From a bacterium (lineage in GTDB: Bacteria; Vulcanimicrobiota; Vulcanimicrobiia; Vulcanimicrobiales; Vulcanimicrobiaceae), in assembly GCA_021790935.1 (NCBI GenBank), contig JAJYFL010000002.1, positions 1-64,000 on the forward strand: a stretch of DNA of 64,000 nt, given 5' to 3'. Below the pieces are notes generated by a model. That model was not told where the DNA came from and ran no database searches. It saw only the letters and a program-made list of their open reading frames with translations. The translations under genes were made by a program, and so were the position numbers. How positions within the stretch are numbered: position 1 is the first letter of the stretch; every line of letters starts with the position of its first letter. Of the stretch, positions 10,076 through 37,129 are shown piece by piece.

Positions 10076-11184
10076 AGCTTGAAACGTCCGGCGGCGTGCA
10101 AGCCGCGTGGTTTGCCGAGAAGGTTCGTCGCGCGGGATTCCCCGACGCGGAGGCCTTTGCGGCGCATTTCCGGTTGAAGCCCTACCGGCTTCGGCAGATC
10201 TACCGTGCCGCCGCCAAGGAACTCGCGGCGGATATCGGCGACGTCACGACGCTTCCCAAGGATCTTCGCGCCGCGCTCGCGGAGCGCGGCTTCTCGTTCG
10301 ACGCGGTCGTACCGGTTGAGGTGCGGCGCAGCAGCGATGGGCAGACGAGCAAAGGTCTCTTTCGGCTCGCCGACGGCAACGAAGTCGAAGCGGTGCTGAT
10401 GGAGCATCACGGCGATCGCAATACCGTCTGCATCTCGAGCCAAGCCGGCTGCGCGTTCGCCTGCGCGTTCTGCGCGACCGGCCAGGCCGGCTTCGCGCGC
10501 CAGCTCGAGCCGACCGAGATCTTCGACCAGGCGCGCTATTTCGCGCGAGAACTCGCCGCCACGGGCAAGCGCATCACCAACGTCGTCTTCATGGGCATGG
10601 GCGAACCGTTTCACAACTACGACGCCGTGATGGAAGCCGTCGCGCTGCTAAACGATCCACACGGGTTTGGGCTCGGTCACCGGCACATTACGATCTCGAC
10701 GGTCGGGCTCGTCGACAAAATCGATCGCTTTGCCGGCGAAGGTATCCAAGTGAACTTGGCGATCTCGCTGCACGCACCGAACGACGAAGTGCGCGGCGCG
10801 ATGATGCCGGTCAATCGCAAGTTTGCGATGGCAGAGTTGCTGGCCGCATGCGAGCGTTACGTCGCCAAAACGAACCGTAAGGTGTTTTTTGAATACGTGA
10901 TGCTCGCGGGCGTGAACGATACGCAGGAGCACGCGCAGCAACTCGCGCGCCTGCTTTCGGGGCACCTCTACCACGTCAATCTCATTCCGTACAACACCAC
11001 CCCGGATGGCGCGTTCTCGGGAAGTGAGGCCGCGCAGATTTGGCGCTTTGCAGCGGTACTCGATGCGGCCGGCGTGCCGACGACGGTGCGCCAGAACATG
11101 GGGCGCGATATCGCCGCCGCCTGCGGCCAGTTGCGCGCCGAGACCCAACCGAAGGCGCGATTTCGTGCTGGGCTCAAGAGGTGA
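10072..11184 (+). CDS. rlmN: dual-specificity 23S rRNA/tRNA adenine-C2 methyltransferase RlmN
   Basis: 370 residues, a radical-SAM enzyme that methylates A2503 of 23S rRNA and A37 of some tRNAs. The cluster motif C-x3-C-x2-C is at residues 127, 131 and 134 (CAFACAFCATG). VVFMGMGEPFHNYD follows, and the methyl-carrying cysteine lies near the end in GRDIAAACGQL. The ATG overlaps the glycosylase stop, so the longer upstream frame is not the start. A partial second copy of this 3' end lies 300 bp downstream. Confidence 0.95.
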   Translation: MKLETSGGVQAAWFAEKVRRAGFPDAEAFAAHFRLKPYRLRQIYRAAAKELAADIGDVTTLPKDLRAALAERGFSFDAVVPVEVRRSSDGQTSKGLFRLADGNEVEAVLMEHHGDRNTVCISSQAGCAFACAFCATGQAGFARQLEPTEIFDQARYFARELAATGKRITNVVFMGMGEPFHNYDAVMEAVALLNDPHGFGLGHRHITISTVGLVDKIDRFAGEGIQVNLAISLHAPNDEVRGAMMPVNRKFAMAELLAACERYVAKTNRKVFFEYVMLAGVNDTQEHAQQLARLLSGHLYHVNLIPYNTTPDGAFSGSEAAQIWRFAAVLDAAGVPTTVRQNMGRDIAAACGQLRAETQPKARFRAGLKR

Positions 11185-11268
11185 GACCGCCTTTGACTCG
11201 TCCGACTATGTGCGGCAATCGCGGAAGACGTCGTGAAGACGAGGCGCGGCATTACTGCTGCGCCTCGC

Positions 11269-11423
11269 GCGTTTCGATGTGCTTGGCCGGCCTGATACGT
11301 ACCGACCGTAGCATATCCGTGACGACTTCGCAACAGCCGTCAAGCTGCCGCGGCTGGAACGCCCGGGAATCGAACCCGGAGCTGCTCGGTGTATCAGGCC
11401 GGCAGTCGACACCATCGAAACGC
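11269..11423. repeat. interrupted inverted repeat (24 paired bases)
   Basis: GCGTTTCGATG (11269-11279) is the exact complement of 11413-11423, and GCCGGCCTGATAC (11286-11298) is the exact complement of 11391-11403. The two blocks are separated by 6 nt on one side and 9 nt on the other, giving a long stem with an internal loop around a 92-nt apical region. A transcript from either strand could fold it. Confidence 0.75.
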
Positions 11424-11426
11424 CCC
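11355..11426 (-). ncRNA. tRNA-like element, not a standard tRNA
   Basis: On the minus strand, GGGGCGT pairs with GCGTTCC (wobbles allowed) as a 7-bp acceptor stem. CCGGG-TTCGATT-CCCGG is a perfect T arm, an A stands at the discriminator position and CGA-TGGTG-TCG can form a short D arm. The middle arm is too long (CTGC-CGG loop CCG-A-GCAG) with no variable loop; a T-G-A-T loop sequence recalls tRNA-Ile(GAU). CCA is not encoded. It could be a decayed tRNA, a tmRNA-derived tRNA-like domain (the 5' GGGGCG...GTCGAC resembles tmRNA) or an attachment-site scar. Confidence 0.35.
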
Positions 11427-11494
11427 AGCGCTCATCAATCCCTCGCTATCGCGCGACGACAAGTGTGCCTGTGCGTTCGATTAGCCCGACTATT

Positions 11495-11593
11495 TGCGGG
11501 CAACTGCGCGCGGAGGCGCAACCGAAGGCGCCAGGCGAGCGCGTAAAGGATGCCGGCACGAGACGTCGCTTGGATACCAAGCGTTTTGGATGA
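11495..11593 (+). pseudogene. orphan rlmN-like 3' end
   Basis: The frame beginning at TGC 11495 reads CGQLRAEAQPKAPGERV and ends at TGA 11591-11593. The intact rlmN ends CGQLRAETQPKARFRAGLKR. At DNA level 31 of 38 bases match 11132-11169 with mostly silent changes, so this is a diverged duplicate of the 3' end, not a fresh copy. No upstream RlmN sequence is attached. Confidence 0.55.
11567..11587 (+). terminator. hairpin with short T run
   Basis: CGCTTGG-ATA-CCAAGCG is a perfect 7-bp stem with a 3-base loop, followed at once by TTTT. It would end transcription from the rlmN side about 100 bp before the GT2 gene. The T tract is short, so strength is uncertain. Confidence 0.45.
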
Positions 11594-37042: not shown

Positions 37043-37129
37043 GCGCGAGTGGCGAAATTGGTAGACGCACTAGCTTGAGGGGCTAGCGCCCGCAAGGGCG
37101 TGCTGGTTCGAGTCCAGTCTCGCGCACCA
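37043..37129 (+). tRNA. tRNA-Leu (anticodon GAG)
   Basis: 87 nt, class II. Acceptor GCGCGAG (37043-37049) pairs exactly with CTCGCGC (37119-37125), followed by A and an encoded CCA. The anticodon arm is CTAGC-TTGAGGG-GCTAG, giving GAG. A long variable arm (CCCGC-AA-GGGCG type) and the T arm GCTGG-TTCGAGT-CCAGT complete it. Standard for tRNA-Leu reading CUC/CUU. Confidence 0.95.

Follow-up and report, generated by a model that had tools for sequence, protein, structure and literature searches.

The structured non-coding segment that follows rlmN in the window (the whole 64,000-nucleotide stretch of DNA analysed here) is real: its minus strand is one copy of a dispersed RNA cassette of ~200 bp, which belongs to an undescribed RNA gene family seen in one phylum. 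Comparison of the copies strongly supports the order of parts, which appears to run from an upstream motif of non-sigma70 type (P1) through a cloverleaf-like tRNA-like domain (TLD), an internal sigma70-type promoter (P2) and an antisense arm to an intrinsic terminator (Table 1). In the reading that we prefer, and to which we give about an even chance, the TLD would be an effector of alanine identity that is silenced by an antisense RNA, with logic like that of a toxin and its antitoxin; its transcription, charging and toxicity are what we infer from sequence.

Table 1. Parts of the cassette in the window (position 1 is the first letter of the window)
Feature	Position	Strand	Details
P1 bipartite motif, putative non-sigma70 promoter of TLD	11439..11463	-	CTTG 11463-11460, GGGA-type box 11443-11439
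TLD with 10-bp extended acceptor stem	11353..11429	-	R1 107.6 bits, R2 102.8 bits; covariation
Strict 72-nt tRNA-like unit	11426-11355	-	
Short D arm TCGA-TGGTG-TCGA	11406..11418	-	helix 2, 93.6% of cells paired
Anticodon-like arm, 3′-side bulge	11382..11405	-	all 8 helix 3 pairs change on both sides (90 copies)
Anticodon-like loop CTGATAC, 7 nt	11397-11391	-	pseudo-anticodon GAT 11395-11393
T arm CCGGG-TTCGATT-CCCGG	11363..11379	-	helix 4, 99.3% of cells paired
Alanine mark, 3′ side	11355..11358	-	U70 (11358, pairs G3 at 11424), C71, C72, A73 (11355)
P2 internal promoter	11305..11333	-	-35 TTGCGA 11333-11328, 17-nt spacer, extended -10 TGC-TACGGT (-10 at 11310-11305)
Predicted antisense small RNA, ~64 nt	11235..11298	-	start near 11298, predicted from P2
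Antisense arm versus anticodon-like arm	11298-11286	-	pairs 11403-11391
Antisense arm versus acceptor/D region	11279-11264	-	pairs 11428-11413
Terminator hairpin of small RNA	11241..11266	-	subsequent U-run weak here (GTCTTC)

The earlier note on this DNA, made from the letters alone, had described a hairpin, an interrupted inverted repeat and a minus-strand tRNA-like fold of 72 nt. The fold was recovered, with a perfect T arm of 5 bp, as were both parts of the inverted repeat (16 nt, 88%, and 13 nt, 100%; Table 1), through which the 5′ half of the tRNA-like element pairs with a downstream arm. What had been taken for a second, inverted copy of that half is there, but as the antisense arm of a downstream small RNA, and the hairpin at 11241-11266 is also present, but read on the plus strand it has an 11-bp stem and a 4-nt loop instead of the 7 bp first reported. 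The minus strand folds at −105.9 kcal/mol versus −74.2 ± 4.1 kcal/mol for shuffled sequences (z −7.8; 0 of 200 shuffles as low), and the plus strand gives z −7.6 against its own shuffles. ARAGORN, one of the checks that had been proposed, and Rfam at gathering thresholds called only a tRNA-Leu at 37043 in the window. The feature itself went uncalled but drew sub-threshold matches to tRNA-Sec (19.3 bits) and mascRNA (17.1 bits), and at such scores its identity as a selenocysteine tRNA or a mascRNA was rejected.

The outcome named beforehand as fatal to the claim, no conservation and a structure missing in relatives, did not occur. A DNA search returned another copy elsewhere in the genome, 76% identical (C22:162749-162935), and matches in 15 of 60 relatives. 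Over the tRNA-like part, 17 copies align gap-free in 100 columns with MAFFT, and in this ungapped alignment 59 cells are double-changed, versus 16.4 ± 3.7 in shuffles. A larger set of 90 copies (81 loci chosen from the matches of the DNA search and of the covariance model R1), whose alignment was fitted to the model and is thus biased towards the structure, contains 363 double-changed base-pair cells, versus 97.4 ± 9.4 in shuffles, a level that 0 of 500 shuffles reach; structures slid along the same alignment give 44–66. Changes on both sides affect 8 of 8 pairs of the anticodon-like stem and 4 of 5 T-stem pairs among the 90 copies, and the D arm is near-invariant in most copies, with other stems in diverged ones (by eye). 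That the cloverleaf fold is conserved and under selection is well supported by this pattern of substitution.

The acceptor stem of the TLD also appears to bear the bacterial alanine identity set, an assignment that is well supported. According to the excerpt available of one account (PMC9976931), this set comprises A73, G2-C71, G3.U70, G4-C69 and G20; another excerpt (PMC3985003) describes the third pair of tmRNA as wholly conserved as G-U and as serving alanyl-tRNA synthetase (AlaRS). In the cassette family, 83 of the 90 copies have G3.U70 as the third acceptor pair and two have A.C (the remainder are gapped or broken), whereas acceptor pairs 5 to 7 switch among Watson–Crick types. Of the 90 copies, 85 have A73 and 70 have every base of the strict set, GGGG with CUCCA; the window copy, in which acceptor pair 4 is G.U, reads UUCCA instead of CUCCA. 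Most simply read, these features mean that the TLD has to be recognised by AlaRS or by something else that reads the alanine mark. Counting against our model, the sequence does not encode CCA, and positions 73-75 are closed over by three additional covarying pairs; unless trimmed off, these would hinder aminoacylation, so that the RNA could be charged only after trimming.

The 5′ end of the cassette TLD (GGGGC...GG..TCGAC) recalls that of tmRNA, and a collapsed tmRNA had been one of the possibilities raised for the segment. The likeness extends to G3.U70 and A73, a reduced D region, the T arm and a longer stem in place of the normal anticodon arm. Unlike tmRNA (RF00023), however, the TLD lacks a tag reading frame and pseudoknots, is a closed unit of 72 nt with a real, short D stem, and is accompanied by its own antisense RNA. 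The proposal also fails on the genome, in which the sole RF00023 match at the cut-off is a separate and complete tmRNA (C9:151406-151761), the window being unmatched; tmRNA was found in 55 of 60 relatives searched. This tmRNA (L001), although above the Rfam cut-off, carries GGCAGTA at the T-loop position and not a TTCGA-type sequence (by eye). One further genome, G022, has two full-length tmRNA matches over the cut-off (G022:C7:546-898 and G022:C135:19000-19350), which reflect either a duplication or a mixed assembly.

With ordinary tRNAs, tRNA-Ala included (RF00005), the TLD shares the cloverleaf, the alanine identity set and the T loop. Could it then be a working tRNA, charged with alanine through G3.U70, that is made on demand to misread codons through its non-alanine anticodons (Ile GAU, Val GAC, Asp GUC, Leu GAG), with the antisense RNA masking the anticodon? 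In favour, ARAGORN identifies 14 of 60 loci, the window copy not among them, as tRNAs that have anticodons for Ile, Val, Asp, Ser or Leu, the loop triplets of the 90 copies include GAT (35), GAC (17), GTC (16) and GAG (7), and position 33 is a pyrimidine in 85 of 90. A tRNA is expected to have U33, however, and C33 occupies that position in 33 of 90 copies, and in some diverged copies the loop is shifted. The anticodon-like stem is also unlike that of a tRNA, with eight pairs and a bulge, only 2 nt between the arms and thus almost no variable loop, and the acceptor stem is extended. The traits of an elongator tRNA (a 5-bp anticodon stem, a variable loop of at least 4 nt and U33) are not those of the cassette family, and RF00005 exceeded its Rfam cut-off in 0 of 20 diverse loci and not in the window copy either. 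YUNR loops, which are also usual in the targets of antisense RNAs, occur in 40 of 90 copies. We therefore consider a role in mistranslation distinctly unlikely. Since ARAGORN takes 14 of 60 loci for ordinary tRNAs, genome annotations may carry false tRNAs from this family. The loci so called (for example, L024, L036, L041 and L132) mostly have the alanine mark in their acceptor stems.

Downstream of the TLD, the P2 pattern TT....-N17/18-TA...T is present in 81 of 86 assessable copies (4 of the 90 were left out because their downstream DNA is short or masked), and transcription from it is predicted to begin exactly where the antisense arm does. Among the diverged copies, L153, L156 and L158 carry a consensus TATAAT separated by 17 nt from a TTG box. 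The small RNA is predicted to end, at a family median of 63 nt, in a hairpin with U residues after it, which 74 of 81 copies have, versus 5 of 81 shuffled sequences. An internal promoter and a terminator are accordingly well supported as predicted parts of the cassette; the weak U-run in the window copy counts against the model. Upstream of the TLD, 53 of 81 non-redundant sequences match the P1 motif CTTG-N17-CGTGA with two mismatches at most, versus 2.8 in shuffles; the spacing peaks sharply at 17, and the motif mostly ends 12–13 nt before acceptor base 1. It looks like the promoter of an alternative sigma factor, although several points speak against the model here: P1 is of no known promoter type, it is not clearly enriched in the genome (32 occurrences, versus 20 for the reversed control), and the window copy has a variant of the family motif. 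The suggestion that the segment encodes a new small RNA has thus held up, through the covarying, conserved fold and the presence of a promoter and a terminator, except that there are apparently two RNAs.

Antisense pairing was assessed in 46 copies, to which the 81 promoter-bearing copies were reduced by similarity (variable parts below 75% identity). Duplexes of a TLD and its cognate small RNA have a mean energy of −46.7 kcal/mol, versus −29.4 kcal/mol for non-cognate and −24.5 kcal/mol for shuffled partners. Among the 46, 34 TLDs pair best with their own small RNA and 35 small RNAs with their own TLD; several of the failures are truncated copies. Co-evolution of the antisense arm with the TLD thus appears well supported; given cognate pairing, the 5′ strand of the anticodon-like arm would have kept two partners, its own 3′ strand and the antisense RNA. 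The window small RNA pairs with its own TLD at −50.5 kcal/mol and with the tRNAs of the genome at −37.8 kcal/mol at best (median −28.5 kcal/mol; 30 of 46 tRNA matches). Because its pairing with the TLD is stronger than with any of these 30 loci, the TLD is the likelier target, and an antisense role against true tRNAs was set aside. The six copies from another family of the class (L153–L158) have a longer stretch separating the TLD from P2. Inspection by eye showed that in several of them, most clearly L153 and L156, this stretch contains a hairpin with a loop that again complements the anticodon-like arm and may be a second antisense element, acting in cis.

The same pairing is open to two other interpretations. 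In the first, the small RNA regulates mRNAs in trans, and the TLD, once induced from P1, is a stable sponge that soaks it up. The strong, constitutive-looking P2, the separate P1 and the very strong cognate pairing would all suit such an arrangement. A sponge, however, needs neither G3.U70 nor A73, and because the antisense arm changes with the TLD between copies, no fixed mRNA target site is kept; we regard this interpretation as unlikely. In the second, a single long transcript from P1 is processed, and its tRNA-like 5′ part pairs with the downstream arm to control termination, in the manner of the P4 CI and P1 c4 RNAs, which are known for tRNA-like processing. The cassette resembles these systems in having an antisense-type RNA and its complementary target in tandem, in the same order and on one strand, and the additional hairpin ahead of P2 in L153 and L156, with its complementary loop (by eye), would fit. 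It differs from them in that the complement has its own promoter and terminator; since a strong promoter sits at the start of the arm, the arm is probably an RNA of its own. Moreover, a gene that such a switch could control is usually missing downstream, where the neighbour is convergent in 70 of 85 placements, with its stop codon often close to the small-RNA terminator. C4 is itself an Rfam family, and no Rfam family, C4 included, matched the window copy or any of 20 diverse loci at the gathering score. Searches of phage, plasmid and viral-contig collections also gave no match to the element, and an origin from any of the three was rejected on that basis. A switch of this kind has only a very slim chance of being correct.

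Additional insight came from the decay of the copies. Among 85 assessable copies (5 of 90 could not be assessed), both parts are intact in 71, the TLD is broken and the small-RNA gene intact in 11, both are broken in 3, and an intact TLD beside a broken small-RNA gene was found in 0, counts in which the TLD was judged on more features than the small-RNA gene. The empty class is the more striking because the model search, which begins at the TLD, is biased towards intact TLDs. Three further loci (L028, L037 and L038) keep the small-RNA gene without a TLD. This pattern of loss suggests, as would be expected of a poison and its antidote, that a TLD without its antisense partner may be harmful; a sponge would predict the one-sided loss of the TLD no better than chance, although loss of the sponge alone could still happen. 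Two remnants in one genome, ~1.3 kb apart (L051, G020:C5), retain nothing beyond the P1 box and the TLD's 5′ half, so other kinds of decay occur too. L046 and L038 (G031:C31 and G031:C15), each at a contig end, are probably the two halves of a single element that a repeat with GATGTCCCC motifs has interrupted; the half with the TLD also has an insertion in the anticodon arm, and the small-RNA half looks intact.

R1 matched 47 of the 149 genomes of the phylum (Eremiobacterota/WPS-2, which has few cultured members) at E ≤ 0.001, 43 of them in the family of the window genome and 4 in another family of the class. This threshold was used for the genome counts because true tRNAs turn up among matches that score around 40 bits or lower; the match at C10:255750-255846, for example, overlaps one. 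A scan of genome contigs for the exact pattern returned 29 stretches, labelled Eremiobacterota, WPS-2 or simply 'bacterium'. Copy number is mostly 1–4 per genome, and neighbouring copies occur in G008, G084, G082, G100, G088 and G079. The module is dispensable, since 52 of the 99 genomes of the family have no match even at E ≤ 0.01 or weak ones only, a point that speaks against the model.

Such patchy presence, at several places per genome and in tandem arrays, is also what a MITE- or REP-like mobile repeat, an inverted duplication without RNA function or an integration scar might show, with the complementarity kept by template switching or recent spread. In G003, G004 and G009, none of which has an R1 match, rlmN adjoins a glycosyltransferase gene without the element, so the element was gained or lost there, and a duplicated rlmN tail lies alongside it in the window: the region of the last 37 nt of rlmN (11122-11158) recurs beyond the element at 11495-11531 (84%), as if the end of rlmN and the element had been duplicated together. 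In G008 and G013, sequences resembling the rlmN tail likewise flank elements (by eye). In a sister species (G001:C71; L021 and L202), ~1.4 kb of extra DNA separates rlmN from the element, and the glycosyltransferase gene is still on the other side of the element. Against a passive repeat, however, are the covariation, the retention of G3.U70 and A73 and the conservation of promoter and terminator, none of which would be expected of one. No integrase, phage or other mobile-element gene was recognised among 40 neighbour proteins scanned, and neither a target duplication nor a transposase was identified, although many places, tandem arrays and empty sites were seen. A repeat without RNA function is therefore very unlikely. 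The integration scar that the earlier note had offered as an alternative does not serve as the main reading, given the same protein scan and the strong constraint at the RNA level, with the caveat that empty sites between rlmN and the next gene do occur. The neighbours were also considered as a clue to function and set aside: they are diverse metabolic genes (for example, acyl-CoA dehydrogenase, thiolase and aminotransferases), among which only rlmN, adjoining the element in 15 of 81 loci, and acyl-CoA dehydrogenase (6 of the 40 proteins scanned) recur.

Returning to the antisense-silenced effector, the model has two RNAs. RNA 1 would be the TLD with its alanine identity set (G2-C71, G3.U70, G4-C69 and A73), transcribed from P1, which lies directly before it and, being non-sigma70, is probably separately controlled. 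RNA 2 would be the antisense RNA of ~64 nt, transcribed from the strong internal P2 and ended by the intrinsic terminator. At its 5′ end (GUAUCAGG...) lies a match to the anticodon-like loop, from which the duplex could zip through the anticodon and D arms and unfold the cloverleaf. Most likely the antisense RNA would thereby keep the tRNA-like effector silent, and the effector would act once P1 is induced or the antisense RNA is lost, either through its charging by AlaRS or because it ties up AlaRS, EF-Tu, SmpB or the ribosome. It counts against the model that, if transcription from P1 reads through, the TLD and the antisense sequence would lie on one RNA and pair in cis. We infer the production of both RNAs, promoter activity of P1, charging of the TLD and harm from free TLD, and the logic would then be that of a toxin/antitoxin pair with both partners made of RNA. 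A bolder version, which we hold only tentatively, is an RNA-only addiction or stress module in which an alanylated mimic of tRNA-Ala or tmRNA poisons the translation machinery and the antisense RNA attacks its anticodon and D arms, the diverged copies forming their own specific pairs; it would be fired by the alternative-sigma promoter.

Each single part of the cassette is of a known kind. The closest parallel in logic is the type VIII toxin/antitoxin system, made of RNA only, in which, according to the excerpt available, CreT sequesters tRNA and CreA needs CRISPR effector proteins (PMC8501985). Both systems place a toxin-like RNA beside a silencing RNA, and the loss pattern of the cassette fits; at the sequence level, its two RNA genes are adjacent, one is complementary to and specific for the other, and the TLD is never kept without the small-RNA gene (0 of 85; the reverse, 11; the small-RNA gene judged on fewer features). 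Unlike CreT and CreA as that excerpt portrays them, the proposed effector of the cassette mimics a tRNA and its silencer pairs with it directly. The pseudo-tRNA tRNA-Other of Bacillus cereus, as an excerpt describes it, is likewise tRNA-like, is not for translation and resides in a regulatory RNA (PMC3399842); unlike the cassette, it is a single locus by a genomic island, and the excerpt describes no dedicated antisense RNA gene for it. In Rfam and the open-access literature searched, no tRNA-like RNA with a dedicated antisense RNA gene was found, and because no described system pairs the two, the cassette appears new in kind. It falls outside tmRNA, tRNA and the described Rfam families, and would work like an RNA-only toxin/antitoxin pair.

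With RNA as its sole component, the cassette may serve as a control module or as a poison with its antidote. Should the pair function as predicted, bacteria of this phylum would possess a control or addiction system that targets translation without any protein, and the cassette would offer a simple test bed for how an antisense RNA switches a tRNA fold off.
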